A stretch of DNA of 39,812 bases from Nitrospira sp. (GTDB lineage Bacteria > Nitrospirota > Nitrospiria > Nitrospirales > Nitrospiraceae). The DNA lies in the NCBI GenBank assembly GCA_023248215.1, contig JAHFEW010000040.1, positions 1 to 39,812 on the forward strand, given 5' to 3'. Shown here in pieces: positions 4,410-36,055 of this stretch. The position numbers and the translations under genes were made by a program. The notes below the pieces were generated by a model. That model was not told the origin of the DNA. It ran no database searches and saw nothing but the letters and a program-made list of their open reading frames with translations. Position 1 is the stretch's first letter. The number at the start of each line of letters is the position of its first letter.

Positions 4410-4435
4410 GCCAGCCTGTCATTGGTCTTTATCCT

Positions 4436-4741: not shown

Positions 4742-4868
4742 TCCCAGTTCACGTTGTGCTCTCTTGCTCTGCGGCTTGATCCCGCAGGGTGTGACAGAGC
4801 AATGCGGCGTGGTCTCTCGCGCCCCATGCACACTGCTTCTCCAGATCGTCGATGTACGAGGACCGTCA

Positions 4869-6140
4869 ATGTTCTTGGTCCGTGACTTCCGCACTGCCTT
4901 GAGGGTTGTCGTGGTACTGCTCGCGATGAGTGGCTCCGCAAGCCTCGCCTGTGCCGACAATGACCGCCAGGCCGCCGTCATACTAGAGGCGCCACTCACA
5001 CTCGTGCAGGCGATGACGGCGTTGTCCCCTCCCACCCTTCGATTTAATCGCGAGGGGCTGTTGCACGCTGCCTGGGTGGAAAAAAGTGGGCTGCAAGGGG
5101 AGATCAAGACGGCGCAAGTCCCAGCAGGACAATCGGCAGCGACCATGGTTCAGGTGAATCAGGCCGGTAGCGGACCGGAAGCCGTTCATCAATCTCCTGG
5201 ATTTGCCATGGGATCTGATGGCGCTCAATTCGTCACCTGGTCCGCCGCCAATAAAACTCCCGGCGCGCTCTTCGCTTCGGATCTCAAGCTCACGCGTTCG
5301 ACCGATGGCCATATCTTCCAGGCGCCGACGCAGGTCAATGACGACGGATTGGCCATTTCGCACACGTTTGAGGATCTGTCCGTGGGGAAGGGCGGCGAGA
5401 TCTACGTGGCCTGGCTGGACGGACGGAATAAGGATCGGAGTGGCGCCAGCGCATTGTTTGCCTGCTCGCGGGACAACGGGGCCACGGTCGACAAGAATGT
5501 GGTGATCGACGGGATGGCCTGTCCCTGCTGTCGTCCGATGCTGGCCCAGGCGCCGGATGGAGCGTTGTGGGTGGCCTGGCGCAAAACCTTCGAGGGGAAC
5601 GTGCGGGACATCGTGATCGCCAGGTCGACCGACCAGGGGCGGTCCTTTTCGCCGTCGACGGTGGTGAGCCGGGACGGGTGGGTGTTCGATGCTTGTCCGC
5701 ATCGCGGGCCTTCCATCGCCTTCGATGGCCCGGGACGGCTGTATATCGGATGGTACACAGAGGGCAAAGACGAGCAGCCTCGTCTCTTCATTGCGACATC
5801 GGACGATCAGGGAGCCACCTTTTCAACAGCGGTAGCGCTCCATTCTGCCGCCACTTCACTTCCGGACAATTTGCAGATGGCGGTCCACCCGGACGGGCAA
5901 GTCGTGGCGGTGTGGGAAGAGGTGACCGGCGTACGCAAACGAGTCGTCATGCGGGTCTCAATGGATCGCGGGCAGACATTCGGCCCGGTGCTCACCTTGA
6001 GCAGCGGTTCCAAGGCAGAGCATCCGGCGGTGGCCATCCATGACAGCGGGAGGGTAGCGATCGGCTGGACTGAACATGCATTTCCGCACAACAAGATTAT
6101 CGTGCAACAGGGGCAGCTGCAGCGCGTGGCGGACCAGTAG
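4869..6140 (+). CDS. Sialidase-like Asp-box beta-propeller with CxCC motif, copy 1
   Basis: The 423-aa protein has a signal peptide (residues 1-30, ending SLACA). Repeated Asp-boxes of the S-x-D-x-G-x-T-F type follow (SRDNGATV, STDQGRSF, SDDQGATF, SMDRGQTF), typical of sialidase/BNR propellers. I see no evidence for the full sialidase active site. What sets it apart is a cysteine set: C218-P-C220-C221-R, and later C276-P-H-R. Both are shared with the paralogue at 10474. They fit a metal site or disulphides better than glycoside hydrolysis. The gene sits between CxWxC copy 1 and a repeat element that precedes tonB. The ATG at 4869 gives the signal peptide. Annotation tools would probably call it exo-alpha-sialidase, which I think is misleading. 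Confidence 0.8.
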   Translation: MFLVRDFRTALRVVVVLLAMSGSASLACADNDRQAAVILEAPLTLVQAMTALSPPTLRFNREGLLHAAWVEKSGLQGEIKTAQVPAGQSAATMVQVNQAGSGPEAVHQSPGFAMGSDGAQFVTWSAANKTPGALFASDLKLTRSTDGHIFQAPTQVNDDGLAISHTFEDLSVGKGGEIYVAWLDGRNKDRSGASALFACSRDNGATVDKNVVIDGMACPCCRPMLAQAPDGALWVAWRKTFEGNVRDIVIARSTDQGRSFSPSTVVSRDGWVFDACPHRGPSIAFDGPGRLYIGWYTEGKDEQPRLFIATSDDQGATFSTAVALHSAATSLPDNLQMAVHPDGQVVAVWEEVTGVRKRVVMRVSMDRGQTFGPVLTLSSGSKAEHPAVAIHDSGRVAIGWTEHAFPHNKIIVQQGQLQRVADQ

Positions 6141-6998: not shown

Positions 6999-8135
6999 AT
7001 GGACAATGTGCTCATGGCGCAATCGTGGCAATCGAAACAGGCAGCGAAGGGGTGGGGGGCGTCCCTCGTGCTACATGCCTGTCTCGCGCTGGCCGCGTTC
7101 GTTCTCATGCCGAAGATGGCTGTGCTGGTGCAGCAAGAGCCGTTCAAATGGGATGTGGCCCTGGTCGAGGCTCCGCGTGAAGTGGCGCGTCAGGAAGAGC
7201 CGGCCCCTGTGCCGCAAGTGCAGCCCCCAGCGCCGACGCCAGTGCAGCCCCGGCCCGAGCCGGTGCGCGCCGTGCCGCCGCCTCAGCCGGTGCAGCGCCA
7301 GGTGGAAACGAGGGTGGTGCCGCAGGTGGTTCAGCGTGAAGTCCAGCCGGTGGTCGAAACGGTTCGTCCTCAAGAGCAGATTCAGCCGACACGGGAAGCG
7401 GTTCAGGTGCAGGCGAAGCCGATCGAGCCACAAGAAATTCAAAAGACTGAACCGCTGATTCAGGCGGCGACGCCGGCTGAGGTGAAGCGAGAGGTGGCTC
7501 CGGCGGTTGAGCAACAGGCCGTTGAAGCGGCCCCTGTGACGGCCCAGATCTACCAGGCGCAGAAGATGGTCACCGAACCCGCAGTAGTGGAAACGCGATC
7601 AGAGCCGGTCATGACGGCGAGCGCGCCGGCTACCCCGGCCGCCGAATCGGTTCCGGCCAATGTGGATCCTGCGCCAGCTGTGGAAGCAGTCGCCGCCGTG
7701 AGTGAGCCGGTGCCGGCGCCCTCGGCCCCTGCGGAACCAACCGCCGAACCGACCGCCCCGGTTGCGGCTGCACAGCAGGATCCGGCCACGTTGCAAGAAC
7801 ATCAGGTCGTGGCCCGCGCGGTTATGCCCAGGCCTGCGACGAAGGCCGACTATGGATGGCTGGCGGAATCGTTGCATCGCCGCATCATTGAGTTGCGACA
7901 TTACCCAAGTACCGCGCGCTTGAATGGCTGGGAAGGCAAGGTCGTGCTGAAGGTCTCGATCCGCCAGGACGGGCAGCTCAAAGATGTCCAAGTGGTAAAG
8001 AGTTCCGGGCATGAGTCGTTAGATCAAGCCGCGATAGAAGCGGTGCGGCGAGCCTGCCCACTCCATATGAAGCATGAGCTGACGGCTCCGATGGTCGTGC
8101 TGCATCTTCCGGTCAGCTATAGCCTAAACCGATAG
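6999..8135 (+). CDS. tonB: TonB energy transducer
   Basis: TonB links the ExbBD proton channel in the inner membrane to TonB-dependent receptors in the outer membrane. The 378-aa protein has an N-terminal membrane anchor (about residues 24-42). A very long Pro/Val/Glu/Ala-rich periplasmic spacer (about 60-280) follows. The C-terminal TonB domain (about 290-378) includes YP, a GWEGKVVLKVSI strand, GQLKDVQVVKSSGH and LDQAAIEAVRRA. No exbB or exbD is present in the window, so it must share them with another locus. The start has a GGAAGGGAG ribosome site. Its TAG stop is the first codon of a repeat-element end (TAGCAGGATGGTGAAAAA). It presumably serves the receptors at 12745 and 17157. Confidence 0.92.
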   Translation: MDNVLMAQSWQSKQAAKGWGASLVLHACLALAAFVLMPKMAVLVQQEPFKWDVALVEAPREVARQEEPAPVPQVQPPAPTPVQPRPEPVRAVPPPQPVQRQVETRVVPQVVQREVQPVVETVRPQEQIQPTREAVQVQAKPIEPQEIQKTEPLIQAATPAEVKREVAPAVEQQAVEAAPVTAQIYQAQKMVTEPAVVETRSEPVMTASAPATPAAESVPANVDPAPAVEAVAAVSEPVPAPSAPAEPTAEPTAPVAAAQQDPATLQEHQVVARAVMPRPATKADYGWLAESLHRRIIELRHYPSTARLNGWEGKVVLKVSIRQDGQLKDVQVVKSSGHESLDQAAIEAVRRACPLHMKHELTAPMVVLHLPVSYSLNR

Positions 8136-8826: not shown

Positions 8827-8832
8827 AACAAG

Positions 8833-9141
8833 ATGCCCGGGATGCAACGTATCGCGACCAGTGTGGTATTGGCTCTCTGTCTGCTGGGGCTTCAGGGCCT
8901 GGTGTACCCGCGCGTGATGGAGCACGCCTCGCAGCATGCTCATCATGGGGCGGATGTCCATGGCACCGCCCTGTGCACTTGGATGTGCGCGGCTGGACAG
9001 GTGCTTGATGGCGCTCCCACAACCTCTCTTCTTGAACGATCGCCGGTTGCCCGCCTCGAACAGGTGACTCCTCGAACCATTCCCCCTATTGCGACCCGAA
9101 CCGTTCCTTCTCGCGGACCTCCAGCGGATTTCCTGCTCTAG
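8833..9141 (+). CDS. Small His-rich CxWxC protein, copy 2
   Basis: The 102-aa protein has the same plan as copy 1. A hydrophobic N-terminus (9-25) is followed by H31, H35, H37, H38 and H43, then C48-T-W50-M-C52, and SRGPP near the C-terminus. The His spacing relative to copy 1 differs by one residue. It follows the TlpA gene by 6 bp, so the two are surely translated from one message. Start choice between ATG 8833 and ATG 8842 is open, since the ribosome site is weak. Function unknown; a periplasmic metal-binding or metal-delivery role is inferred from the ligand-rich motif and the neighbours. Confidence 0.72.
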   Translation: MPGMQRIATSVVLALCLLGLQGLVYPRVMEHASQHAHHGADVHGTALCTWMCAAGQVLDGAPTTSLLERSPVARLEQVTPRTIPPIATRTVPSRGPPADFLL

Positions 9142-10416: not shown

Positions 10417-10473
10417 CGACGGATGACAGCTGTGAATATGACAGGCGGCGCGCAATTGGCGAAGAGAGGCATC

Positions 10474-11763
10474 ATGATTCTGTGGCATCTGGCTCGAAAG
10501 AGTTCCTCCTCATGCATGGCTGCGATCATCCTGCTAGGTGTAATGGTGGGCCCGCCGGTTCGCGCGGAGTCTCCTGAGGTGTTTCATCTCGGTGCCAAGT
10601 GGACGACCGAACACAAGGTGAAGAGCGTGGTGGGTCCGTCGGTGCAGATCGACGAGCAGGGTTCTGTCTCGTTGGCTTGGATGGAAGAGGACAAGGACGT
10701 GCGATCCGTGCTGTATGCCCGCAGTACCGCGCCTGGCGGGCCGATGGGATCGCCGGTTCGCATCAATCGCCCCGACGACGTGCCCTATTGGAGACAGGAA
10801 GCTCCGGCCCTGGTGGTGCAAGGGGACGAGGTCTTTGTCACCTGGGGATTGACGCATTCCAAGGCAACCCCACAGCAACCGCTCGCGACTGAGTTGCGCT
10901 TGAGCCGCTCCACCGATCGTGGACAGACGTTTCAGCCGTCGGTGCTGGTGAATGATGATCCGGGTGTCATTCAACATACCTTTGATGCGCTGCATCGCGA
11001 CTCGGATGGCCGGCTGCACCTGTCGTGGATCGACGGACGTGACGGGAGGAAAGAGCCGGGGACCTACGTCGCTCGATCGCTGGATGGCGGTCAGACGGTG
11101 ACGAAAAACATCCAAGTCGACGAGGGCACCTGTGTCTGTTGCCGAACGGCGGTCACCAGCGGCCCGGACGGCATGGTCTATGTGGCCTGGCGAAAAATCT
11201 TCGAGGGTAACGTCCGCGAAACCGTCGTCGCTCGTTCGACCGATCACGGCGACACGTTCGAGGCGCCTGTCATCGTTGGGCACGATCAATGGGTGTTCCC
11301 GGCCTGCCCACACCGGCCGGCCTCCATGGGAGTGGATCGGCAAGGACGGTTGTATGTGGTTTGGTACACGGAAGGGAGGGATGAAATTCCCGCCGTCTAC
11401 ACCGCCTATTCCGACGATCGAGGCAAGACCTTCTCGGAAAAGCGAAAACTGAACATCGCCAAAAACACGTTTCCCGACCATCCCCAGATTGCTGTCGATC
11501 CGGCCGGACGGATCGTCGTGGTGTGGGAGGAGCAGGCGCCGGTCAAGCGGGATGTGGTGATGAGTGTCTCGAACGATCGCGGGGAGAGGTTTGCCACGCC
11601 GCAAAAAGTGAACGAGAAAAAAAGTCAGACCCCCGTGGTAGCGGTGAATGCGCAGGGGCTGTTTGCCCTGGCTTGGATGGAGCACGGCATGCCGGGCCAT
11701 AAGCTCGTGGTGCAGACTGTGCGGGTACCGTCCGTGAAGGTGGCGGCTGAACCGACACGGTGA
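10474..11763 (+). CDS. Sialidase-like Asp-box beta-propeller with CxCC motif, copy 2
   Basis: This 429-aa paralogue of 4869-6140 has a signal peptide ending near PVRAE (residue 31). Asp-boxes are STDRGQTF, SLDGGQTV, STDHGDTF, SDDRGKTF and SNDRGERF. The cysteine set is C220-V-C222-C223-R plus C278-P-H-R, at nearly the same positions as in copy 1. Both also share (V/L)AWRK.FEGNVR and WY.EG.DE. The conserved cysteines argue for metal or redox chemistry rather than sialic acid cleavage. The ATG at 10474 has GAAGAGAGG upstream; an earlier start at 10423 is possible. The second TlpA gene follows after 25 bp. Confidence 0.8.
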   Translation: MILWHLARKSSSSCMAAIILLGVMVGPPVRAESPEVFHLGAKWTTEHKVKSVVGPSVQIDEQGSVSLAWMEEDKDVRSVLYARSTAPGGPMGSPVRINRPDDVPYWRQEAPALVVQGDEVFVTWGLTHSKATPQQPLATELRLSRSTDRGQTFQPSVLVNDDPGVIQHTFDALHRDSDGRLHLSWIDGRDGRKEPGTYVARSLDGGQTVTKNIQVDEGTCVCCRTAVTSGPDGMVYVAWRKIFEGNVRETVVARSTDHGDTFEAPVIVGHDQWVFPACPHRPASMGVDRQGRLYVVWYTEGRDEIPAVYTAYSDDRGKTFSEKRKLNIAKNTFPDHPQIAVDPAGRIVVVWEEQAPVKRDVVMSVSNDRGERFATPQKVNEKKSQTPVVAVNAQGLFALAWMEHGMPGHKLVVQTVRVPSVKVAAEPTR

Positions 11764-11788: not shown

Positions 11789-12319
11789 ATGATGATCATG
11801 CTTCTGAGAGGCGTCGTGCTGTCTGTCGCCCTAGGGCTGGCCGCGAGCCCTGTGTTCGCAGACGATCCCCTGGCGGCCTTGAAAATCGCGCGGGTCCTGC
11901 CGGAGACGGCTGCGGCGCCGTTCGACTTGAAATCTCTGGATGGCAAGTCGGTTCAACTTGCGGACCTGAAGGGGAAAGTCGTCCTGGTGAATTTCTGGGC
12001 CACCTGGTGCGGGCCCTGCAAGGAAGAAATGCCGGCATTCGAACGGTTGCGGCAGAAGCTGGACCCCCAGCGCTTCGCCCTGCTCACGATCACAACCGAC
12101 TTGCAGCGGGACGGCATCAAGCATTTCCTGGCGAACCTGCATGTGCAGCTTCCCGTGTTGTTCGATGAAGATCAGGACGTGTCCCAGGCCTATTTGGTGC
12201 GCGCCTTGCCGACCACGGTGCTCATCGATCGGCAAGGACGGTTGGTTGGACGCGCCGTCGGGCCGCGCGAGTGGGATGCCCCCAAAGCGATTCATCTGTT
12301 GCAGGGCATGATGGAATGA
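11789..12319 (+). CDS. TlpA/ResA-type thiol-disulphide oxidoreductase, copy 2
   Basis: The 176-aa secreted thioredoxin-fold protein has a signal peptide (1-24, ending PVFA). It carries the redox motif W-C74-G-P-C77 and the cis-Pro segment VRALPTTVLIDRQGR near residue 140. It is clearly related to copy 1 (DLKSLDGKSVQLADLKGKVVLVNFWATWC), but has a cleavable signal and the classical CGPC. Its last four bases overlap the start of CxWxC copy 3 (ATGA), indicating translational coupling. The thioredoxin plus CxWxC pairing is thus repeated in the cluster. Three ATG codons lie close together at the start (11789, 11792, 11798). Confidence 0.9.
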   Translation: MMIMLLRGVVLSVALGLAASPVFADDPLAALKIARVLPETAAAPFDLKSLDGKSVQLADLKGKVVLVNFWATWCGPCKEEMPAFERLRQKLDPQRFALLTITTDLQRDGIKHFLANLHVQLPVLFDEDQDVSQAYLVRALPTTVLIDRQGRLVGRAVGPREWDAPKAIHLLQGMME

Positions 12320-12636: not shown

Positions 12637-12744
12637 TTCCTTTTCATATCGCTAGTTGTGCTAGCTGCTCTTCTCGCCTGATGGACAGGGGCGAGAGGGG
12701 TCTGTCCCTGCTGTCATGTGCACCGTTGTGCCAGGAGGAAGTGT

Positions 12745-15069
12745 ATGTGGGCCAGTCTTCATTCATCAAAAATTCAATCGATTCTTCTCTGGAGCGTCGT
12801 GATGGCGCTGTCCTTCGCTGACTCTCATTCGTTCGCGCAAGAGAACGCTCCGGCTCCGGCAGTGGTGGAAAAAAGCGCGCGGGAGCGCGATCTGCGGGAT
12901 CAGTTGCAAAAAATCCTCCATGAGCTGGAGGAACTGCAACAGCAACCGGAAGCGGGTGCGTCGGCCGTGTCGCCTCCACCGGCGGTGGTGCAGGAATCGC
13001 TCGAGCCGACCCTGGCGGAGCCGATCCCACAATATGAGCTGGCCGATGTGAGCATCGTGAGCAACCGGGTGCAGCGGCGGCCGGAAGGTATCACGCTCTC
13101 GGCCACCGAGCAGTCGGAAACCGAATCCCAGCCGACCAGGACGCTCAAAGAATCGATGGAATCGCTGCCGGGTGTCGTGCTCAGGCAGGCCAACGGGCCA
13201 AGAGACTTCAGCATCTCCATCCGCGGGTCGGGAGTCAAAACATCATTTGCGGTCCGGGACATCAAGATGTATGAGGACGGGTTCATCCAAACGCAGTCCG
13301 ACGGCTTGTCGCGCTTGGATATCCACGATCCCTGGTTCATGCGAAGCGTGGAAGTCACCCGAGGCGCCTCGTCGTCGTTGTACGACAACTACGCGCTCGG
13401 CGGCATGGTGCATTTCCGCACGCGACGTGGGAGCGATATCAACGGATTCGAGTCGTTCCTCAGCGGCGGGTCCTACGGGTATCAGAAATACTCCTTCGCG
13501 GTCGGCAAACAGTACACCAATGTCGATGTCTCGCTCTTTGGGAGCAACGTGATCGAGGACGGATTCATCCGGCACAGCGATTACAGCACGCAAACGATGA
13601 ATTTCAATTTTCGCGTGAAGGTGGACGACAAGCAGAACCTGTATTTCAAGGCCATTACGAACTGGCTCGACACGCGGGTGCCGACCAGGCTGACTATCGA
13701 TCAATTCAATGCCGATCATCGGCAGGCTGGCGGGATCAACAACGCCACGAATGCGGTGTTGCTGGGACAGCGCCGTTTGGACCGACGCAACATCATCGGC
13801 GGGATGTACGAGCGGCAGATCGATGCCAACACGGTGCTCACGATGGAAGCCGACTACGACGTAAAGGACATCAACCAGACCTTCACGCAGATCACCGACA
13901 ACATCAATCCGAACTACAAGCACTATACCGATTTACGGCACGATGGCCGGTTGTTCGACATGCCTTTGCGCAGTTACGTCGGTTTCTTCGTGAACCAGAT
14001 GGAGCAGGAAGGGAATACCTTCAACAATCTCCAAGACTTTTACGGCACGCGAGGGACCTTGGCGCAGAACAGCCGAGGCACGATCCGGAACATCGGCGGG
14101 CGATTCCGGGAAGAACTGGAAGTGGTGCCGAATTGGACAGTTGCTGCGGGCCTCGGTTTCGAACAGTCGCAGGTGAGCGTGCAAACGATCAGCTACACGG
14201 GCGGCGCCGTGAGCGGACGCTCAGGGGCAGAGCGAAGCTTTAGCAACTGGGCGCCGGAGATGTCGATTACCTGGAAGCCGGCGGAGGACTATCGCCATTG
14301 GGCCCGCGCTTCCACCGGTTACGCGATCCCGGGATTCGGCAATCTCACAACGAATCCCTTTACCGGCCTCGCCGGGACCAACTTCGAACTGAAACCCCAG
14401 AAGAATCTGAATGTAGAACTCGGGACGGAGTCGCGGCTGCACAAGACGCTGACGGTGCAACTGGTGGGGTTCATCACATTCTTCAAGGACGAAATCATTA
14501 CGCAAGTCGTGTCGAACACCGGTGGCACCGCCTCGATCAATGCGGATTCATCGCAGTATAAGGGGATCGAGTTGTTCTATGACTGGCGGCCCTTGGACGG
14601 CTTGCGCCTGTCCGGCGCCTATACCCATATCGACGCCCACTACATCAATTTCAACGACAAGTTCTTGTCGGGCGGCGTGCCGACGACCTTCGTGCGAGAC
14701 GGCAAGTTTGTTCCGAACGTGCCGACCGATGTGCTCAATTTCAAGGAAGCCTACGATCACAGCGGCACCGGCTGGGGCGGATGGGTGGAAACCAATTACA
14801 TGAACACCTATTTCTTGAACAACAACAACACGGTGGGCATTCCTGCTTATTGGATCGTCAACCTGAACATTCACAAAAATTTCGAGTTCCAGAACAACAA
14901 GTGGATACGCTTTGCGAAGTTCTACGCGGAACTGGACAACATCGCCGACAAGAAATACGCGGCGTCCGGCAACGTGGTGGCGGACAGCACGCCGGATGCA
15001 AGCAAAACGCTGTTCTTTGCAGGCTATGGCCGGGCGTTTTATGCGGGGGTGACATTGGGTCTGTTCTAG
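12745..15069 (+). CDS. TonB-dependent receptor 1
   Basis: This 774-aa outer-membrane active transporter has a signal peptide (1-31, ending SFA). An unusual charged helical stretch (about 38-68, RERDLRDQLQKILHELEE, likely coiled coil) comes before the plug. The plug spans about 95-220 (LKESMESLPGVVLRQ, RGSG, VEVTRGASSSLYDNYALGG). A 22-strand-type barrel follows, ending YAGVTLGLF with the terminal Phe needed for Bam assembly. A perfect AGGAGG lies 7 nt before the ATG at 12745. Substrate is unknown. It follows the propeller/TlpA/CxWxC genes, so I infer it imports whatever that module handles. Its TAG stop is the first codon of repeat copy B. Confidence 0.92.
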   Translation: MWASLHSSKIQSILLWSVVMALSFADSHSFAQENAPAPAVVEKSARERDLRDQLQKILHELEELQQQPEAGASAVSPPPAVVQESLEPTLAEPIPQYELADVSIVSNRVQRRPEGITLSATEQSETESQPTRTLKESMESLPGVVLRQANGPRDFSISIRGSGVKTSFAVRDIKMYEDGFIQTQSDGLSRLDIHDPWFMRSVEVTRGASSSLYDNYALGGMVHFRTRRGSDINGFESFLSGGSYGYQKYSFAVGKQYTNVDVSLFGSNVIEDGFIRHSDYSTQTMNFNFRVKVDDKQNLYFKAITNWLDTRVPTRLTIDQFNADHRQAGGINNATNAVLLGQRRLDRRNIIGGMYERQIDANTVLTMEADYDVKDINQTFTQITDNINPNYKHYTDLRHDGRLFDMPLRSYVGFFVNQMEQEGNTFNNLQDFYGTRGTLAQNSRGTIRNIGGRFREELEVVPNWTVAAGLGFEQSQVSVQTISYTGGAVSGRSGAERSFSNWAPEMSITWKPAEDYRHWARASTGYAIPGFGNLTTNPFTGLAGTNFELKPQKNLNVELGTESRLHKTLTVQLVGFITFFKDEIITQVVSNTGGTASINADSSQYKGIELFYDWRPLDGLRLSGAYTHIDAHYINFNDKFLSGGVPTTFVRDGKFVPNVPTDVLNFKEAYDHSGTGWGGWVETNYMNTYFLNNNNTVGIPAYWIVNLNIHKNFEFQNNKWIRFAKFYAELDNIADKKYAASGNVVADSTPDASKTLFFAGYGRAFYAGVTLGLF

Positions 15070-15688: not shown

Positions 15689-17098
15689 ATGAGACTCGTT
15701 GTTTTTCTTCTGGCCGTTCTGTTATCCGGCTGTGCGGGCGGCTCCGGCAGTGCCTCGTCCTCCGAGAGGTCGCATGCGACCGGGTCGACAACGGCCGGGA
15801 GCTATGCATTTCTCAACGGCCGGTGGTTCGACGGAACCGGCTTTGAGGCAGCTATCTGGTACTCGGTGCAGGGACGTCTGACTCGCACGCCGCCGCAGGG
15901 CCGAGTGGAGACGGTCGATCTCTCCGGCCTGTTCCTCGTGCCGCCGTTCGGTGAGGCCCACAATCACAACGTCGAGGATTCATGGAATCTCCAGATCGTG
16001 ACCGAGCGATACCTGCGAGACGGGGTGTTCTACGTGAAGATCCCGAACAATGTGCGGGAGTTCGCGGTAAAGAACCGCGGTGCACTGAATGTGCGAACGA
16101 GTCTCGATGTGACCTTTGCCCACGCCGGCCTCACGGGGCGGGGAGGACATCCGATTGCGCTGTATGAAGACCTGTTGCGGGTCAGCCGGTATGAGCAGAC
16201 GCTCGGACCGATCGAGCGGGGATGGTTTGAGAACCGGGCCTATGTCGTCATTGAGACGGAACGTGATGTGGACGAGAAATGGGAGCTGATCACAAGCGGG
16301 CAGCCCGATTTTTTGAAGGTGTACTTGGTCCATTCTGAGGACTCCGATGGGGATCGACGACCGGGAGAGACGGCGGGCCGCACCGGTCTCCATCCGCGCC
16401 TCTTGCCGCACATTATCGCCAAGGCACATGCGGCGGGGCTGCAGGTCACGGCGCATGTCGAAACGGCGGCTGATTTTCGCCACGCGGTTCAGGCGGGCGT
16501 GGACGAGATCGCCCATGTGCCTGGGTGGCTGGTGAAGAGTGCAGGTGATGCGGAACGCGCCAGACTGACGGAGGAAGAGGCGCGGTCGGCGGCGGAACGG
16601 AACGTGCGGGTCGTGACGACGACCGTCGCGGGGCTGGCCATGCCTGCGGCCGAGGCCCACCACCCGCAGCCTCATCACGAGGAGCATGCCACGAAACAGT
16701 CCGGCCATGGCGAACTTCTGCCGGATGCCGGAGCCGTACAAGTTCTGAAGGACAATCTCACCCTGCTTCATCGTGCGGGCGTTCGATTGGCGATCGGCAG
16801 CGACCATGCCGACACGTCGTTGGCCGAAGTCCTGCACCTGCGCACATTGCAGATCTTCGACGACCTCACCCTGTTGAACCTATGGTGTGAGGCGACTCCT
16901 CGCGCCATTTTTCCTGGTCGAAAAATCGGGAGATTCGAGGAAGGCTATGAAGCCAGCTTCCTGGCGCTGGCCGGTAATCCCATCGATGATTTCACCCAGG
17001 TGCAGGCCATCAGACGCCGGTTCAAACAGGGAGTGCCGCTGGATGATCAGATCGGTGGTGGTGCCGACGGCTCCGAGACAACGCATCGTTCGCACTAG
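15689..17098 (+). CDS. Lipoprotein amidohydrolase-family protein
   Basis: The 469-aa protein begins with a lipoprotein signal (LLAVLLSGC, Cys15), so it is probably anchored to the outer membrane. The body resembles the amidohydrolase superfamily. It has an early beta-sandwich strand set, the FGEAHNHN metal-ligand strand end near residue 92, VTAHVET near 255 and AIGSDHAD near 370 (the late Asp ligand region). Metal ligands therefore seem largely kept, although the motif around AHNHN lacks the usual Asp of DxHxH. A His-rich insert, HHPQPHHEEHATKQSGHGE, lies near 328-346. The substrate cannot be told. It precedes receptor 2 by 58 bp and probably acts with it, processing a ligand at the cell surface or in the periplasm. 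Confidence 0.75.
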   Translation: MRLVVFLLAVLLSGCAGGSGSASSSERSHATGSTTAGSYAFLNGRWFDGTGFEAAIWYSVQGRLTRTPPQGRVETVDLSGLFLVPPFGEAHNHNVEDSWNLQIVTERYLRDGVFYVKIPNNVREFAVKNRGALNVRTSLDVTFAHAGLTGRGGHPIALYEDLLRVSRYEQTLGPIERGWFENRAYVVIETERDVDEKWELITSGQPDFLKVYLVHSEDSDGDRRPGETAGRTGLHPRLLPHIIAKAHAAGLQVTAHVETAADFRHAVQAGVDEIAHVPGWLVKSAGDAERARLTEEEARSAAERNVRVVTTTVAGLAMPAAEAHHPQPHHEEHATKQSGHGELLPDAGAVQVLKDNLTLLHRAGVRLAIGSDHADTSLAEVLHLRTLQIFDDLTLLNLWCEATPRAIFPGRKIGRFEEGYEASFLALAGNPIDDFTQVQAIRRRFKQGVPLDDQIGGGADGSETTHRSH

Positions 17099-17156: not shown

Positions 17157-19418
17157 ATGAAACCTGGGTTGCATTGGGAAAGTGTATCGGCATGCTGTGG
17201 TCTGGCGGCCATGTTGGTGATGGGAATCTATGCGTCCGCCGAATTGGCGGCGGAGGAACCTTCAGATCAAGACGCGCCCGTGGTGGTGGTCGAGCCGGTC
17301 GAGGTGAAGGGGAAGCGGATCGAAAACGTCGAAGATGTGAAGCAGGAACTGGCTCGTAGACCGGGGAGTAATATTCTCATCGAAGAAAAGCAGATCACCG
17401 AGTCACGAGCCCTCAATCTTCAAGACGTGCTGCAGTTTGCACCCGGGGTCCGCTTTCAATCGCGCTTCGGCGCGGACGAAGGACAGTTTCAGATCCGGGG
17501 CACCTCCTTGCGCAATAACTTCCACCATCGAGGCATCAACATCTTGATCAATGGGATCTTCTTCGGCGATGCCGACGGCTTTTCTGATTTTGAATCGATT
17601 GACCTCTTGGCGTACGAACGCATCGAAGTCTATAAGGGCGCGAACGCGCTGCGCTACGGGGCGAACAGCATCGGCGGGGCGATCAACTTCGTGCCGCGGA
17701 CGGGCTACAGCGCCTCCACGCTGCAAATGCGGATGCTCGCCGGCAGCTTCGGCATGGTGAGCGGCCAGGTCTCCAGTGGGAAAGTCACGCAGCCGTTCCA
17801 GGTCGGCAGCATGAGCGCGACGATGGACTACTACATCAGCGTCTCCGGCAACCGCCAGGACGGATTTCAAGACAACAGCCAGCAGGCCAGAGAGCGGATC
17901 AATGCCAACATCGGCCTCCAGCTCGGGAACCATCAGGAGATCCGCGCTTATTTTCTCCAGGCGAATGTGGCCGAACGCATTCCTGGCTCGCTGACCACTG
18001 GACAACTTTTTCAAAACCGGCAGCAGGCGGGTGGGCAAAGCCCTCCCGGAACCCCTCCGTTCTTTGCGTGCAACCTGAACAACCAGGTCTGTAATTACGG
18101 GCGTTACTATAGTCTGCAGCGCATCGGGATCGCGTACCACAACGAGTTCGCTCCCAATCAATACTTCGAAATCATTCCCTACTTCTCGAATCAGTATGTG
18201 GACCACCCCATTTTCCAGACGATTCGACAGGATAACAACAACGTCGGCGGTGAGTTCCGGTACGTCAATTCCAACACCTTGTTCGGGAAGAACAACTCCT
18301 TCGTCGCGGGATTCCAGCCGCGGTATGGTGATCAGCGCCAGCAGCGGTTTGTGAACATCAACGGCAGCATCGGAGCCCTGACGCAAAACTACAGGGCCCA
18401 GACCACGTACTTCGGCGCCTATGCCGAAGATGCGTTCGATGCCACCAAGGACTTCACGATCGTGATCGGTGGCCGCTGGGACTATAGCGGACGGCAGGCC
18501 ACGGTGGACAACTTCGGACCGGCCGGCAATCCCTTCAACCCCAATACGCCGTCCACGCCGACCGGCACCAATCGGCCGTTGCAGCATTTCGATGCGATCA
18601 GCCCGAAAGTCGGCTTCGTCTATCGCACCACGCCGACTTCTCAATTGTATTTCAATGCCAGCCGGGCCTATGAGGCGCCGCTCAATCTGGAGCTGCTCTC
18701 CTCGGTCAACGCGAACGGCACGCCGAATACGGGCTTTCTCAACCTTGACGCGCAGCGCGCGTGGCAATTGGAATTAGGCCACCGCGGGACCTCCGCCGAT
18801 CGGCGCTACAACTGGGATGTCACGGTCTACAATCTCGAGATGCAAAAAGAGATTCTCGCGTCGATCATCAACAACCAGGGTACGTTCCAAAACGCCAATG
18901 GGACGCGTCACACCGGCGTGGAAGCGGGCGGTGGCATGGTGCTCAAAAAAGGGCTGTTCGCACAGGGTGGGGCTGGCAGGGAGGACAGCCTGCAAACGCG
19001 CGTGGCCTATACCTGGTCGCGCTTCAAGTTCACCGATGACGTGCGAGCTGGGGGAGCAGTCGGCCAGAATGTGTTGATTGCCAAAGATGGGAACACGGTT
19101 GCCGGTGCGCCGGAACATAGCCTGAACGTGGAGTTCCGGTACGACCATCCGGCCGGTTGGTGGATCGCGCCGAATATCGAGTGGTCGCTGTCCGGATTCT
19201 ATACGGACTATCAAAACACGATTAAGAATCCTTCCTATGCGCTCATCAATCTGCGGTCAGGGTGGAACGTCGACGAACACTGGACGCTCTTTGCCGAAGG
19301 ACGCAATTTGACCGACAAGACCTATGCCGGCGCAGTGGTGGTCAACGATCAATTCAATCGGTATGCCAACGCGGGGCTGGGAATCAGCGCATTCGGAGGG
19401 GTGGAGTATAAGTTCTAA
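17157..19418 (+). CDS. TonB-dependent receptor 2
   Basis: The 753-aa outer-membrane receptor has a signal peptide (about 1-31) and a plug with LNLQDVLQFAPGVRFQ near 90, FQIRGTSLRNN near 117 and ERIEVYKGANALRYGANSIGGAINF near 160. The barrel ends GGVEYKF with a terminal Phe. The ribosome site AAGGAGAAG is ideal. It is the Fe-siderophore-like (FecA/FhuE-type) class by plug style, but the ligand cannot be deduced. The barrel holds one Cys pair (ACNLNNQVC near residue 303-309), probably an extracellular disulphide. A strong stem-loop lies 40 bp after the stop. It belongs to the amidohydrolase / S9-like neighbourhood. Confidence 0.92.
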   Translation: MKPGLHWESVSACCGLAAMLVMGIYASAELAAEEPSDQDAPVVVVEPVEVKGKRIENVEDVKQELARRPGSNILIEEKQITESRALNLQDVLQFAPGVRFQSRFGADEGQFQIRGTSLRNNFHHRGINILINGIFFGDADGFSDFESIDLLAYERIEVYKGANALRYGANSIGGAINFVPRTGYSASTLQMRMLAGSFGMVSGQVSSGKVTQPFQVGSMSATMDYYISVSGNRQDGFQDNSQQARERINANIGLQLGNHQEIRAYFLQANVAERIPGSLTTGQLFQNRQQAGGQSPPGTPPFFACNLNNQVCNYGRYYSLQRIGIAYHNEFAPNQYFEIIPYFSNQYVDHPIFQTIRQDNNNVGGEFRYVNSNTLFGKNNSFVAGFQPRYGDQRQQRFVNINGSIGALTQNYRAQTTYFGAYAEDAFDATKDFTIVIGGRWDYSGRQATVDNFGPAGNPFNPNTPSTPTGTNRPLQHFDAISPKVGFVYRTTPTSQLYFNASRAYEAPLNLELLSSVNANGTPNTGFLNLDAQRAWQLELGHRGTSADRRYNWDVTVYNLEMQKEILASIINNQGTFQNANGTRHTGVEAGGGMVLKKGLFAQGGAGREDSLQTRVAYTWSRFKFTDDVRAGGAVGQNVLIAKDGNTVAGAPEHSLNVEFRYDHPAGWWIAPNIEWSLSGFYTDYQNTIKNPSYALINLRSGWNVDEHWTLFAEGRNLTDKTYAGAVVVNDQFNRYANAGLGISAFGGVEYKF

Positions 19419-19457: not shown

Positions 19458-19491
19458 GCACAGAGCCTCGCCGTTGGGCGAGGCTCTGTGC
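19458..19491 (+). terminator. Strong stem-loop after TonB-dependent receptor 2
   Basis: A perfect 15-bp stem (GCACAGAGCCTCGCC with its complement) closes a 4-nt GTTG loop. No U-run follows, so it may act as a transcript-stabilising 3' end or need Rho. Confidence 0.6.
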
Positions 19492-19590: not shown

Positions 19591-21618
19591 ATGTCTGTTA
19601 GGCATCCCCGGATGGTGTGTCCTGGTCACCTCAGGGATAAACCGCGCCGGCTCATGTACGGACTGCTTGCCATTCTGTTATTCCTGTTGTGCGTGGAGCC
19701 CGCCCACGCGGATTCAAGCTCTGCGCCTCCACCCACTGAGTCCTTCGCCGCTCTTCCGCGCATCTCATCGATTCAACTCTCTCCATCGGGCAAACATCTG
19801 GCGGTCCTCCGCAATCACGAGGGGAAGACCTGCCTGGATACCCAAACCGTCACCGGGCAGGATGTGCACCGCGTCGTGACGATGGACAATCTGGAATTTA
19901 TCATTGCGTGGTTTCAGTGGGTGAACGACGAACGGTTGCTGGTCAGTATCCGGCTCGCGGATGCGCGCGAGGGGATCGACTCGCAGGAAACTCGACTGCT
20001 GGCGGTCAATCGGGACGGGACGCAGCAGAACCCCAATCTTTTCAAGCAGGCTCCCTTCCTCTCGACCTTTGGAAAGAAACATTTCCCCCAGTTCCAGGAT
20101 CGTATCGTGGGAACCATTCCGGGCGATCCCAGGCATGTTCTCATCGCGCTTGACCTCGAGCGACCGCTGGCTCCGGATGTCTACAAACTGGACGTCTATT
20201 CCGGCGAGCGGCAGCTGGTGCAGGCGAATCCGGGACTGCAGCCGGGCTCGCGCAATGTCCTGCGATGGATTGCCGATCGCGAAGGCCAGGTGCGGGCCGG
20301 GGCGGGCCAATTTGAGACCACGGTGCGTGTGATCGTCAAGCCGCCGGAGTCCAGCACGTGGCGCGACTTTGCCGAATATGACCTGGCAAAGGAAACAGGC
20401 CTGGTGCCGCTGGCGTTCGATGCCGATCCCGCGTGGCTCTATGTGAGGGATCAACATCGGGGAAAGGCCGCGATCTTTAAGCTCAACATCGTTGATCGCT
20501 CGGCGGATCGTCTTCTCGTGGCCTCCGACCAGAAGTTCGATCTGGCCGGCGAATTGGTGTATGCGCCGGGGCGCCGGAAAGTCGTCGGCGTCCGGTACAG
20601 CGCGGGTGATCAGCGGGTCTTGTTCTGGGATTTCGACGCCCAGCGGCTCCAGGCCCGCATCGATCGGACGATACCAGGGCGCGCGAACGTCATTCATAGC
20701 AGCAGTGACGATGGGCGACTGCATGTGGTGCGCTCAGCCGGCCCGGCTCATCCTCCGCAATTTTATCTGTTCGACGAACGCGATGGGCGCATGGTAGCGC
20801 TCGGTCAGGCCTACCCCGATCTTGACGCGGCCGGTCTGGCGGTTCCGCAATCGATCACGCTGACGGCACGCGACGGGAAAGAGTTGCATGGTTTTCTGAC
20901 CATCCCGAAAGATCGAGACCCTCGACAACTTCCCCTGATTCTGTTTCCGCACGGGGGGCCGGCATCGCACGAACGCGATGCGTTCAACTATTGGACGCAG
21001 TGGTTCGCGAGTCGCGGGTGGGCGGTGCTGCAAGTCGACTTTCGCGGCTCGGACGGGTACGGAGATGAGTTTGCACGGGCCGGATTCCAGCGCTGGGGTC
21101 TCGAGATGCAGGACGATTTGACCGACAGCGTGCATTGGGCGATCCAAACCGGCCTCGCGAACGCGAACCGCATCTGTATCGTCGGCGCAGGCTATGGCGG
21201 GTATGCAGCGTTGATGGGCGCGGTGAAGACGCCGGAGCTCTATCGCTGCGCCGCCAGCCTGGGCGGCGTGACGGACTTGCTGCAGATCGTGGCCGCCAGC
21301 CGCTGGTATCTGAATCAAAAGCAGGTGGTGGAGTCGCGCACCGGTTCCTGGTGGAGTGATCGCGATCGACTGCAGGACACCTCACCTCTGTACCATGCGC
21401 AGGACATCCGCACGCCGCTCCTGCTGATGCATGGCGCCATGGATCGGGTGGTGTCGGTGTCCCACGGCCGCGACATGGCCGAGGCATTGAAGATGGCCAA
21501 GGTCACGGCCTATCGTTATATCGAACTCCCCTTGGCCGATCAGGCCCTGAGTCGCGAGCAGGATCGGATGCAGGTATTCATGGAGCTGGAACAATTTCTC
21601 ACCAACTATTTAGAGTAG
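19591..21618 (+). CDS. S9 (prolyl oligopeptidase-like) family protein, probably catalytically dead
   Basis: The 675-aa exported protein has a signal peptide (hydrophobic MYGLLAILLFLLCVEPAHA). An N-terminal beta-propeller domain (about 60-400) and a C-terminal alpha/beta-hydrolase domain (about 410-675) follow, the order of S9C acylaminoacyl-peptidases. FPHGGP, the DFRGSDGYG loop and the GW..MQDDL segment are normal. But the nucleophile elbow reads G-A-Gly534-Y-G-G-Y instead of G-x-Ser-Y-G-G-Y (codon GGC where Ser AGC is expected). The catalytic His position is Gln651 (ADQAL where GHGF is usual). Only Asp618 (HGAMDRVV) of the triad remains. It should be a non-hydrolytic binding protein. Start is uncertain among 19591, 19612 and 19654. 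Confidence 0.85.
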   Translation: MSVRHPRMVCPGHLRDKPRRLMYGLLAILLFLLCVEPAHADSSSAPPPTESFAALPRISSIQLSPSGKHLAVLRNHEGKTCLDTQTVTGQDVHRVVTMDNLEFIIAWFQWVNDERLLVSIRLADAREGIDSQETRLLAVNRDGTQQNPNLFKQAPFLSTFGKKHFPQFQDRIVGTIPGDPRHVLIALDLERPLAPDVYKLDVYSGERQLVQANPGLQPGSRNVLRWIADREGQVRAGAGQFETTVRVIVKPPESSTWRDFAEYDLAKETGLVPLAFDADPAWLYVRDQHRGKAAIFKLNIVDRSADRLLVASDQKFDLAGELVYAPGRRKVVGVRYSAGDQRVLFWDFDAQRLQARIDRTIPGRANVIHSSSDDGRLHVVRSAGPAHPPQFYLFDERDGRMVALGQAYPDLDAAGLAVPQSITLTARDGKELHGFLTIPKDRDPRQLPLILFPHGGPASHERDAFNYWTQWFASRGWAVLQVDFRGSDGYGDEFARAGFQRWGLEMQDDLTDSVHWAIQTGLANANRICIVGAGYGGYAALMGAVKTPELYRCAASLGGVTDLLQIVAASRWYLNQKQVVESRTGSWWSDRDRLQDTSPLYHAQDIRTPLLLMHGAMDRVVSVSHGRDMAEALKMAKVTAYRYIELPLADQALSREQDRMQVFMELEQFLTNYLE

Positions 21619-30581: not shown

Positions 30582-33473
30582 ATGGCGATTGATCCGATCT
30601 GCGGGATGACAGTGGAGGCGGCAACGGCGGCGGGCCGCTTCGACTACGAAGGCGAGGCCTACTACTTCTGCAGCACCCATTGCCTCGACCGCTTTCGAGC
30701 CGCACCGAACCAGTATGTAAAGAAGGTCTCTGCCGCCGGTGCGGCCCTTCCAGTTTCGGGACACCGCTCGCTTCCCATGATGCAGCCGATGGTGGATCAG
30801 CCGGTCGCAGGCGGCGAACTTGACCCGGTCTGCGGAATGACCGTGCAGCCATCCACGGCGGCGTGGTCTTACCTGCACGAAGGCAAGACCTACTATTTCT
30901 GTTCTCAGGGTTGTCTCGAAAAATTCCGGGCCGATCCCGCTCGCTATCTGATGTCGGGCACCGTGGCGCCCGTGGAAATGAAACGACCTCTTGGCGGGAA
31001 CCCTCTCCCCATGCTGGCTGTATCCCCGCCGAGCGAGACCGCTTCCGGTGCTATCGATCCTGTCTGTGGCATGACGGTTGATCCGGCCACAGCGGCCGGG
31101 TCCCATGTGTATCAGGGCAAGCCCTACTACTTCTGTTGTCAGAGTTGTTTGACCAAATTTCGCGCAGATCCTCTGCGGTATCTCGCTCCTGCGTCATCGA
31201 AACAGATCACTCCTGCAGCACCAGCTGCCGTCGGGACGAAGTATGTCTGTCCCATGTGTCCTGAAGTGCTGGAGGACAAACAGGTGCCCTGTCCGAAGTG
31301 CGGTATGGCGCTGGAGCCAGCCTCGCCGTTGCCGTTACCGGCAAGGACGGAGTATGTCTGCCCGATGCATCCGGAGGTCGTGCAAGCGGAGCCTGGTGCC
31401 TGTCCAAAGTGTGGGATGGCGCTGGAGCCGAGGACGGTCACCGTCGAGGACGAGCAGAATCCCGAGTTGATAGATATGGCTCGACGGTTCTGGGTCGGGC
31501 TCAGCCCCACGGCGGTGGTGTTCGTGCTGGCCATGTCTCATATGCTTCCCGGTCATCCGATGCAATATGTGATTTCGGACGAGTGGTCGGCATGGGTTCA
31601 GTTCCTGCTTAGCACGCCGGTCGTCCTCTGGGCTGGATGGCCGTTCTTTCAGCGCGGATGGGCGTCGATTGTGCATCGTAGTCCGAACATGTTTACGCTG
31701 ATCGCGATCGGCACCGGCACGGCCTATCTGTACAGCGCCTTCGCCACGGTGTTTCCGTCGTGGATTCCGCAATCGTTTCGGCTTGAGCACGGGGCGGTGC
31801 CGGTCTACTTTGAAGCCGCGGCCGTGATTACGGTGCTGGTCCTGCTCGGCCAGGTCATGGAACTGCGGGCGAGGAGCCAAACGACCGGTGCCATCCGGGC
31901 CTTGCTGGGGTTGGCACCCAAGACCGCGCGATTGTTGCGGGAAGACGGTCGAGAGGAGGACATTCCGCTCGATCAGGTGCAGGTGGGAAGCCATCTGCGA
32001 GTGCGGCCGGGAGAGAAAGTGCCGGTCGATGGTCTCGTCCTCGAAGGGACGACGGCTATCGATGAGTCGATGATTACCGGAGAGTCCGTGCCGGTTGAGA
32101 AAAGCGTTGGTGACCGCGTCACGGGCGGCACGATCAACGGCTCGGGTGGTGTCGTCATGCAAGCCGATCGCGTCGGCGCGGACACGCTGCTGGCGCATAT
32201 CGTTCAGATGGTCGCTGAGGCGCAACGCAGCCGGGCGCCCATTCAGCGGACCGCCGATGTAGTGGCCGGGTACTTTGTACCCATCGTGGTCGGCGTTGCG
32301 ATCGTGACCGGACTGGCCTGGGCGTTGTTTGGGCCGGAACCGCGTCTGGCCCATGCCTTGCTGAATGCCGTGGCGGTGCTGATCATCGCCTGTCCCTGTG
32401 CCCTTGGCTTGGCGACGCCGATGTCGATCATGGTGGGAACGGGGCGCGGCGCTGCGGCAGGCGTCTTGTTCAAGCAGGCCGAAGCGCTGGAGACGATCGA
32501 GAAGGTCGATACATTGGTCTTCGACAAGACCGGTACTCTCACCGAAGGGAAGCCGAAACTTCGAGTCGTGAGCGCGTTGCCCCCTTGGTCCGAAACGGAT
32601 CTGTTGCGACTAGCGGCCTCGGTCGAACGGGGGAGCGAGCATCCGTTGGCCGGTTCCATTGTCAGTGGGGCCGAGGCGCGTGGCATCAAGCTGGAGCAGG
32701 CGTTCGATTTCACTTCGAAGACGGGGAAGGGCGTACTGGCCACAGTCGGGAGCAGACGAGTGGCGGTAGGCACCGTTGATCTGTTACGAGAAGGACTGGC
32801 GGACGGCGACGGCTCTCTTGCCGCGTTGGAAACGACTGCCGAGATGATGCGGCAGACGGGACAAACCGTGATGTTCGTCGCCGTCGATGGCCGTCCTATC
32901 GGCTTGCTTGGGGTGGCCGACCCGATCAAGAGTTCAACGCAGGACGCGTTGCGACTGTTGAGGCAAGAGGGGCTCAGGCTGGTGATGGTCACCGGCGATC
33001 ATGCGGTGACGGCAGAGGCGGTGGCGAAGGAATTGGGATTGGACGAGGTCCTGGCCGGCGTGAAACCCGGCCAGAAGAGTCGGATCGTCCAGGATCTTCA
33101 GAAGGATGGCCATGTGGTGGCGATGGCCGGCGATGGAGTGAATGACGCTCCGGCGCTGGCGCAGGCTGATGTCGGTATTGCCATGGGAACTGGAACCGAC
33201 GTGGCCATGGAGAACGCCGGTGTCACGCTGGTCAAAGGAGATTTGCGAGGCATTGCCAGGGCGCGCCGGTTAAGCAAGGCCACGATGCGGAACATTCGGC
33301 AGAATCTCTTTTTCGCCTTTGTGTACAATATGGTCGGGGTTCCCATCGCGGCTGGTCTGCTCTATCCCTTCTTCGGCGTTCTCCTCAGTCCTATGTTGGC
33401 CAGCGCGGCGATGACCTTCAGTTCCCTGTCGGTGATCTCCAATGCGTTGCGTCTCCGGCATGCCGATTTATGA
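30582..33473 (+). CDS. copA: Copper-type P1B ATPase with three YHS and two HMBD domains
   Basis: This 963-aa inner-membrane ATPase exports Cu(I) or a similar soft metal. In order: three YHS domains (about 4-45, 83-126, 160-205), each with DP(I/V)CGMTV and a YYFC..xC pair; then two heavy-metal-binding HMBD motifs (about 222-246 and 255-280; YVCPM..PE..., [10 protein letters not shown]). Eight predicted membrane helices follow, with the transport motif C604-P-C606, TGES, the phosphorylation site D648-K-T-G-T, the SEHPLA motif and [10 protein letters not shown]. The usual GMTCxxC ferredoxin-like HMA domains are absent. CPC with YHS/HMBD is typical of CopA/CopB-like pumps, so Cu is likely but not proven. 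HtrA follows directly. Confidence 0.93.
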
Positions 33474-33541
33474 GTTCTGAGTGTGGGACCCCTCACCGCG
33501 TGATAGGCTGTGGCCTGCCTTTCCGGAGGATATTCAGCGCA

Positions 33542-34981
33542 ATGACTTCCAGTATTCGCCATCCGTTCGTCCTGGCCGTAGGGATGCTCATCGCCCTGCT
33601 CGGACTCTGTCCCCTGTGGCAGCCCGCCGCAGCCGGTCCTGCATTCTCTTCGGCGCGTCCACTGCTCGTCAGCACGAACGGGGACTTGCAGGCACAGGTG
33701 CGGACGACCGCAGCCAAAGTCATTCCTGCCGTCGTCAGCATTGCCTCGACCGTCATGGTGCACGATCAGACATTCAGCGATGAAGGCCTTCCCTTCGGCA
33801 TGTTCAAAGACGTGCCTCCTCGCCGGCAGTACGGCCAAGGCTCCGGGGTCATCGTCTCGCCGGACGGATACATTATTACCAACAACCATGTCGTCGCAGA
33901 TGCGGTGGATGTGGAAGTCATCCTGGCCGATCGACGGCAGTTCAAAGGCCGCGTGGTCGCCACCGACCCGAAGACGGATGTCGCGGTCGTCAAGATCAGT
34001 GCGACCGGCCTTCCCACAGTGGCCTGGGGCGATTCCAGCGCGCTCGCCGTCGGTGATTTCGTGCTCGCGATCGGTAATCCGTTGGGATTGAGCCGCACGG
34101 TGACGTTCGGCATCGTCAGCGCCGTAGGGCGCGCGGATGTGGGGGTGGCCGACGTGGAAGACTTTATTCAGACCGATGCGCCGATCAATCCGGGGAACTC
34201 CGGCGGGGCGCTGGTGAATATCAATGGAGAGCTGATAGGGATCAATACGGCCATCGCCAGTCCGACCGGCGGCAGCGTCGGCGTGGGGTTCGCGATTCCC
34301 AGCAACATGGCGCGAACCGCCATGCAGAGTCTCCTCAAGACCGGCCGTGTGGTGCGTGGGTTTTTGGGTGCCTCCACGCAGGATGTCACCCCGCTGTTAG
34401 CCAAGATTTTTCACCTGCCGGATGTCAAAGGCTCGATCGTGACCGACCTGCAGGCGAAGGGCTCAGCCGAACGGGCTGGATTGAGGCGCGGCGACGTGGT
34501 CGTGCGTTTTGACGGACGCGATGTGATGGACAGTGGCCATTTGCGCAACCTGATGGCGGCAGCGGCCATTGGCAGCAAACACCGGATTGAGTTGGTTCGT
34601 GAGGCCAAGTTGATGCAGACGGACCTCACCGTGCAAGAGGCTCCGCGAGAACGAGTCAAAAAAAACCAGACGTCGGATGCCGCGAGCACGGCCGCGCATC
34701 CCTTGGCCGGGGTGATTGTCGATGATGTGACGCCGGCCTTGGCGCGACAGATGGATTTGGCCGTCAATTCCGGACTCGTCGTGACGGATATCGAGGAAGG
34801 CAGTCTGGCCGAAGTGTCCGGTCTCCAGCCAGGCGACCTCATTCTAGAACTCAATCGGCAGCCGATCCCGAATTTTGCCACCTTCCAACGGCTCGCCGAG
34901 CCGTTTCGATCCACCGACCTCGCCCTCTTGCTCATCAATCGCCAAGGCAACATTCTCTACATTCCAATCCAGGGCGAATAG
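33542..34981 (+). CDS. HtrA/DegP-like periplasmic serine protease with two PDZ domains
   Basis: The 479-aa protein has a signal peptide (1-31, ending AAAGP). A trypsin-like domain follows with the complete triad: H116 (TNNHVV), D146 (KTDVAVVK) and S220 (GNSGGAL). Two PDZ domains follow (about 275-365 and 390-478). It degrades or refolds damaged exported proteins. The gene lies right behind copA; an ATG at 33470 overlaps the copA stop (ATGA), but ATG 33542 gives the cleaner signal peptide and has GGAGGA upstream. Co-transcription with copA would link metal export to envelope repair (inference). About 100 bp separate it from nikR. Confidence 0.92.
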   Translation: MTSSIRHPFVLAVGMLIALLGLCPLWQPAAAGPAFSSARPLLVSTNGDLQAQVRTTAAKVIPAVVSIASTVMVHDQTFSDEGLPFGMFKDVPPRRQYGQGSGVIVSPDGYIITNNHVVADAVDVEVILADRRQFKGRVVATDPKTDVAVVKISATGLPTVAWGDSSALAVGDFVLAIGNPLGLSRTVTFGIVSAVGRADVGVADVEDFIQTDAPINPGNSGGALVNINGELIGINTAIASPTGGSVGVGFAIPSNMARTAMQSLLKTGRVVRGFLGASTQDVTPLLAKIFHLPDVKGSIVTDLQAKGSAERAGLRRGDVVVRFDGRDVMDSGHLRNLMAAAAIGSKHRIELVREAKLMQTDLTVQEAPRERVKKNQTSDAASTAAHPLAGVIVDDVTPALARQMDLAVNSGLVVTDIEEGSLAEVSGLQPGDLILELNRQPIPNFATFQRLAEPFRSTDLALLLINRQGNILYIPIQGE

Positions 34982-35026
34982 GCCCCTCTCCTTCGTTCCG
35001 TCCCTCACGGTGTCGTTATTCTTCGG

Positions 35027-35055
35027 TTGACTCGCCGCTTCAGCAGTGTTACTTT
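35027..35055 (+). promoter_or_regulatory. nikR promoter
   Basis: TTGACT (35027-35032) and TACTTT (35050-35055) are 17 bp apart. The -10 box falls inside the left half of the NikR operator, as expected for an autorepressed gene. Confidence 0.5.
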
Positions 35056-35073
35056 TTATAAATTCGTAACACT
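35045..35073. promoter_or_regulatory. NikR operator (perfect palindrome)
   Basis: AGTGTTAC and its exact complement GTAACACT are separated by 13 bp. This matches the GTGTTAC-N13/14-GTAACAC type of NikR site known outside enterobacteria. It lies 13 bp before the nikR start codon and covers its -10 region. Confidence 0.8.
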
Positions 35074-35085
35074 TGATGAGGTCTT

Positions 35086-35924: not shown

Positions 35925-35963
35925 GCGAGGCCGCTCGTTCTTCTTTGCTCCCATACTGCACAG

Positions 35964-36043
35964 TCAGATCACGAGGGTCTGAACCGGCCGAGAGGGGCTG
36001 ACCGTGGGCTTTTGTGAGCGCCTCGTCCGTTCACGTGATCTGA
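35964..36043 (+). promoter_or_regulatory. Possible structured leader before TonB-dependent receptor 3
   Basis: TCAGATCACG (35964-35973) and its perfect complement CGTGATCTGA (36034-36043) enclose 60 nt that contain smaller GC-rich foldable words (CCGGCC, GGGGCTGACC). The right arm ends 12 bp before the receptor ATG. It could be the closing stem of a regulatory RNA or a pair of half-sites. No named riboswitch is recognised. Confidence 0.4.
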
Positions 36044-36055
36044 TTCGGAGTGGTT

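Follow-up and report, generated by a model that had tools for sequence, protein, structure and literature searches.

The window analyzed here, a 39,812-nt contig of a 4.69 Mb Nitrospira genome, carries a gene for an S9 peptidase-like protein in a cluster with TonB-dependent receptors, in which the serine and the histidine of the expected catalytic triad are replaced. This raises the questions of whether the gene has merely decayed, encodes an enzyme of some other chemistry, or is maintained for a non-catalytic role, and of what that role might be. To answer them, the window was compared with related Nitrospira genomes, including the finished N. defluvii chromosome.

Reading frame and active site of the S9 gene

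The frame is open over 675 aa (19591-21618, + strand), and a profile search matched residues 465-674 to Peptidase_S9 (PF00326; E 7.7e-36; score 124 bits, cut-off 22.6). While the initial annotation was thus correct in describing an uninterrupted frame, the start that it gives, 19591, probably lies too far upstream. The ATG at 19654, giving 654 aa, appears to be the true start, because in-frame stops occur just 5' of residue ~18 in four orthologues and most of the genus reading frames begin near residue 22. Translation from 19654 opens with a good signal peptide, MYGLLAILLFLLCVEPAHA, and this prediction implies that the protein is probably periplasmic. The features of the gene are as follows.

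19654..21618, + strand: predicted S9-type pseudoenzyme (open frame, PF00326, upstream stops in orthologues)
19654..19710, + strand: probable Sec signal peptide (sequence read directly)
19738..20820, + strand: N-terminal beta-propeller region, ~residues 50-410 (inferred from S9 architecture)
20824..21615, + strand: C-terminal alpha/beta-hydrolase domain, residues 412-675 (PF00326, model, PDB matches)
21190..21192, + strand: nucleophile position 534, Ser replaced by Gly, codon GGC (alignments, codon read)
21442..21444, + strand: catalytic Asp618, kept in all (alignments)
21541..21543, + strand: catalytic His position 651, occupied by Gln, codon CAG (alignments)

The closest solved relatives were shown to be acylaminoacyl peptidases and related S9 enzymes, with 5l8s matched at E 3.6e-27 by sequence and at 6.4e-31 with a profile. 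When the hydrolase domain was modelled alone (pLDDT 75.8, pTM 0.79), its top PDB matches were S9 enzymes, including 8wt1 (Foldseek E 3.8e-16), and it could be aligned with 1ve7 over 234 residues (VIA-align Z 24.0, rmsd 3.2). The propeller region consisted only of strands in a low-confidence full-length AlphaFold model (pLDDT 53), and gave a partial PDB sequence match to 7c72 from residue 264. In comparison with the acylaminoacyl peptidase/S9C enzymes (5l8s, 1ve7, 8wt1, 7c72), the protein therefore shares the hydrolase fold, the HGGP loop, the GxxxGGY elbow, and the catalytic Asp, but it differs from them in lacking the Ser and His of the triad, in its predicted export, and in being part of a TonB-uptake cluster; identities in the structural alignments were 20-28%.

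Assignment of the active-site positions was concordant among the sequence matches to S9 structures, a MAFFT alignment with intact-triad relatives, and the domain model. Thus, of the triad of an active S9 serine peptidase, Asp is present while the Ser in GxSxGG and the His are missing, and the comparison with S9 structures that the initial annotation had proposed upheld its reading of Gly at the nucleophile, Gln at the His position, and a retained Asp. The protein is the sole true S9 protein of this genome: as a query it matched itself alone, and the remaining PF00326 matches were weak alpha/beta-hydrolase ones.

Loss of the catalytic residues across Nitrospira and its relatives

Orthologues with 69-82% identity were found in 27 of the 29 genus genomes, the window's own counted; the gene was missing from one complete genome (G009) and was not detected in another that is 84% complete (G017). 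As for the nucleophile, none of the 26 readable genus genomes encoded Ser, 25 having Gly and one, G004, having Asp, and the absence was seen in the finished N. defluvii chromosome FP929003.1 as well. The His position of the same genomes was occupied by Gln (12), Glu (8), or His (6). Of the Gly/Gln pair of the window, Gly is thus shared by nearly all homologues, whereas Gln turned out not to be fixed. Chance, sequencing error, and isolated decay were ruled out by the agreement of all 26 genomes, finished chromosomes included.

Beyond the genus, a protein of a sister genus (G414, 60% identity) bears Asn at the nucleophile and Tyr at the His position. In G308, from a third genus, the protein combines Gly at the nucleophile with a retained His, and its close relative G143 possesses the full triad. 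In the phylogenetic tree, the Nitrospira proteins and that of G414 formed one clade (99/100), while G308 grouped with G143 (100/99). Because the clade without Ser is monophyletic while the Gly-bearing G308 groups with the Ser-bearing G143, the tree showed that Ser was lost at least twice, once before the Nitrospira radiation and, as a separate event, in a second genus. The former loss is placed by the tree before the split from G414, and the drift of the His position was shown by the same comparison to have come after the loss of Ser. Outside Nitrospirota, the only matches were on plasmids, all below 60% identity, with 31-38% for the best of them; the two examined have an intact Ser, and one of them adjoins a TonB heme-type receptor while the other lies in an unrelated context.

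Two further observations concern individual members. The G004 orthologue (L027, G004:C1:1721936-1723900) combines a nucleophile Asp with Asp and His, resembling an Asp-nucleophile alpha/beta hydrolase. In addition, a 3.7 kb contig from a genome assigned to another genus (L038, G361:C128) encodes an S9 protein 100% identical to that of the window, and is probably mis-binned.

A second Nitrospira clade of ~47% identity was found to keep Ser, Asp, and His (G004, G009, G015, G018, G023, and G025, together with G225 from another genus). In N. defluvii, this intact-triad paralogue, at 2111073-2112962, adjoins TonB, ExbB, ExbD, a receptor with an STN domain, and FecR (L069, 2098000-2117900), and on the basis of this gene arrangement the S9 proteins of Nitrospira are assigned to TonB-uptake loci.

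The median pairwise dN/dS of the S9 gene was 0.138 (propeller, 0.129; hydrolase domain, 0.128), which is within the range of its neighbours, namely receptor 1 (0.131), the amidohydrolase (0.177), and receptor 2 (0.052); all these values are approximate, with synonymous sites near saturation. Full-length frames were retained wherever the gene was complete on its contig. Of ~80 positions invariant in the intact relatives, the clade without Ser retains almost all, the main departures being S534, H651, N483, S487, G434, and S626; almost no variation is seen in the HGGP oxyanion loop, in the GYGGY elbow, or at Asp618 and Tyr538, and the propeller bears many clade-specific invariant residues. These comparisons indicate a selective loss of catalysis in a protein that otherwise remains under constraint. 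Since the loss of Ser is common to the orthologues and the gene is under purifying selection, the S9 protein is very probably a maintained pseudoenzyme and not a case of isolated decay.

The TonB-uptake neighbourhood and its putative copper link

In the genus, the genes usually stand in the order BNR, TonB, TlpA, leader, outer-membrane barrel, BNR, TlpA, leader, receptor 1, amidohydrolase, receptor 2, and S9. The following neighbours were identified in the window.

4325-4741: leader peptide, CruR/CutF-like (motif, spacing)
6999..8135, + strand: TonB (PF03544)
8827-9141: leader peptide, CruR/CutF-like (motif, spacing)
10423..11763, + strand: BNR-repeat exported protein with a CxCC motif (Pfam, sequence)
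11789..12319, + strand: TlpA/ResA-like thiol-disulfide protein (profile searches)
start 12169/12316, end 12636, + strand: leader peptide (CAWAC-42 aa-RAPP), CruR/CutF-like (81 nt before receptor 1)
12718..15069, + strand: TonB-dependent receptor 1 (TBDR1), PqqU/YncD-like (profile and PDB matches)
15689..17098, + strand: amidohydrolase-superfamily lipoprotein (PF01979, E 7.6e-6; metal ligands apparently intact)
17157..19418, + strand: TonB-dependent receptor 2 (TBDR2), 86-94% identical across the genus (Pfam, PDB 6v81/9c4o)
start 21742/21793, end 22095, + strand: fourth leader peptide, CruR/CutF-like (just downstream of the S9 gene)

The PDB matches of TBDR1 were to PqqU/YncD only. TBDR2 matched the copper-related receptor structure 9rvq (CrtA) at 1.9e-14, but 6v81/9c4o (PqqU/YncD) at about 4e-27. 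Between receptor 2 and the S9 gene lies a 14-bp perfect inverted repeat, cacagagcctcgcc / ggcgaggctctgtg (19458-19491), without a clear T tract. Two BNR-repeat exported proteins (4764-6140 and 10423-11763) each contain a CxCC motif (CPCC and CVCC, respectively) and are possibly metal-binding.

The initial annotation had linked the S9 protein to receptor 2, and this association was not sustained by gene content. Receptor 1 is followed by the S9 gene with receptor 2 absent in G021 and G016, receptor 2 by the S9 gene with receptor 1 absent in G007 and G001, and receptor 1 again by the S9 gene in G143 and G414; conversely, receptor 2 and the amidohydrolase occur without the pseudoenzyme in G009, G279, G140, and G337. 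The S9 gene thus strictly tracks neither receptor, and, because receptor 2 and the amidohydrolase are present in the complete genome G009 while an S9 orthologue is not, gene content indicates that the pseudoenzyme is not essential to TBDR2 transport.

A pointer to copper, absent from the initial annotation, was provided by the leader peptides. Four short proteins of the window, all apparently exported, contain a His-rich stretch and a CxxxC motif and have RAPP or RGPP at the C terminus, and these are the only leader peptides of this type in the genome. Among 14 aligned examples, two His, both Cys, the Arg, and both Pro are invariant, of which the Cys and Pro motifs had served as selection criteria; the spacing from CxxxC to R(A/G)PP, which is 41-42 aa in 14/14, the His residues, and the position of the genes are independent of that selection. 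In Bordetella, CruR is a copper-sensing leader controlling a TonB receptor operon, characterized by CXXC, RAPP, and a fixed 45-residue spacing (PMC9426467), and CutF resembles CruR (PMC9973294). Like those of CruR-CrtA(BfrG) (PMC9426467, PMC12914433) and CutF (PMC9973294), the Nitrospira peptides are small, apparently exported, Cys-motif peptides ending in RAPP with conserved spacing, and a leader stands directly upstream of a TonB-dependent receptor. They differ from CruR in having CxxxC in place of CXXC, a spacing of 41-42 in place of 45, and no Pfam DUF2946 match at E up to 10, and the Nitrospira receptors are closer to PqqU/YncD than to CrtA. The peptides are probably copper-sensing leaders of a family new to Nitrospirota. 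Judged from the motif of the leaders, their spacing, and where they lie, together with a copper-type P-ATPase found a few kilobases from the S9 cluster in several genomes, the neighbourhood points to copper, and the cluster is probably copper-responsive.

Further along the window (30582-38101), a copper-type P-ATPase with YHS domains, a DegP-like protease, NikR, and a TonB receptor are encoded in a row, and in G143 (L105) the same set closely follows the S9 cluster.

Proposed role and precedents among S9 proteins

We consider it rather more probable than any other single account that this exported S9 protein has kept its fold, has lost its peptidase chemistry, and now serves as a non-catalytic accessory of the TonB-uptake cluster. 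In such a role, the pseudoenzyme would act in the periplasm, where the closed cavity between propeller and hydrolase domain would retain a small ligand, either a metal chelate or a peptide-like compound, that the outer-membrane receptors bring in; alternatively, it would dock a component of the TonB/TlpA/BNR machinery. The enzyme from which it descends, a type that persists in one relative at a similar locus and in the paralogue at the TonB/ExbBD/FecR locus, presumably cleaved the ligand. A more specific version is offered only tentatively: the S9 fold would hold an imported chelate of copper (or of another metal) in the periplasm, on behalf of a copper-uptake system controlled by several translational leaders that sense copper, and would be a bacterial counterpart of DPP6/DPP10.

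Equally tentative is the view that the protein is a pure protein-protein adaptor, whose surface docks a receptor, TonB, or a BNR/TlpA protein and whose old active-site cavity is irrelevant. This would agree with the drift of position 651 among Gln, Glu, and His and the changes at N483, S487, and G434, which look as if the pocket chemistry no longer mattered, with the clade-specific invariant residues of the propeller, and with the inactive DPP6 (Asp) and DPP10 (Gly), which bear the same substitutions and work as auxiliary subunits (PMC4873792). The near invariance of the HGGP loop, the GYGGY elbow, Asp618, and Tyr538, however, implies a pocket that is not free to decay, and no one partner is present at every locus.

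Two other explanations are far less probable than a non-catalytic role. Retention of Asp618 and the HGGP loop would be compatible with an enzyme of different chemistry, acting through Asp618 and the oxyanion loop, joined in certain members by Asp534/His651 or Glu651; the G004 protein in particular unites a nucleophile Asp with Asp and His, as do the Asp-nucleophile alpha/beta hydrolases. We regard this as very improbable, given that the nucleophile is Gly in 25/26 genomes, that position 651 varies, and that the hydrolase domain of the clade has gained no invariant Ser, Cys, or His. Ser533 of the GSGYGG stretch was ruled out as a shifted nucleophile, since the window protein and many orthologues have Ala there. 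Conservation hence revealed no alternative Ser/His pair, and together with the lack of Ser in 26/26 genus homologues and the dN/dS of ~0.14, this substantiated the earlier suggestion of a pseudoenzyme kept by selection. Almost as improbable is a relaxed gene that lingers on its way to loss, catalysis having become unnecessary. The gene is indeed missing from G009 and undetected in G017, and Ser loss was followed by His drift, but its intact frames, a dN/dS (at near-saturated dS) resembling those of receptor 1 and the amidohydrolase, and a Ser loss predating the split from G414 all argue to the contrary.

By analogy, the closest functional precedents for the pseudoenzyme in an accessory role are DPP6 and DPP10. 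These members of the DPP4 group of S9 proteins are inactive, bear Asp and Gly, respectively, at the nucleophile, and are Kv4 auxiliary subunits, whereas the fly DPP10 is still active (PMC4873792, PMC4350108). Like the predicted pseudoenzyme of the window, they are S9 proteins that have lost activity, carry Asp or Gly at the nucleophile, and have a relative of the active type; unlike it, DPP6 and DPP10 are membrane proteins of animals, belong to another branch of S9, and have a channel as partner.

Among bacterial S9 proteins, the Atxe2-family lasso peptide isopeptidases are likewise encoded beside TonB receptors. Their catalytic residues are missing in the window protein, and identity with this family was rejected (NF033523; score 49 bits, cut-off 400).

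The best-known inactive S9 proteins, DPP6 and DPP10, come from animals, and our literature search found no paper on bacterial S9 pseudoenzymes or on a genus-wide inactive S9 protein in bacteria. Annotation pipelines would take such S9-family matches for peptidases. The proteins described here would provide a natural series for the passage from a peptidase to a binding protein, with Ser in G143, Gly in its sister G308, Gly, Asp, or Asn elsewhere, and an intact paralogue. For Nitrospira, nitrite oxidizers central to nitrification, the pseudoenzyme marks a probable copper-responsive uptake cluster.
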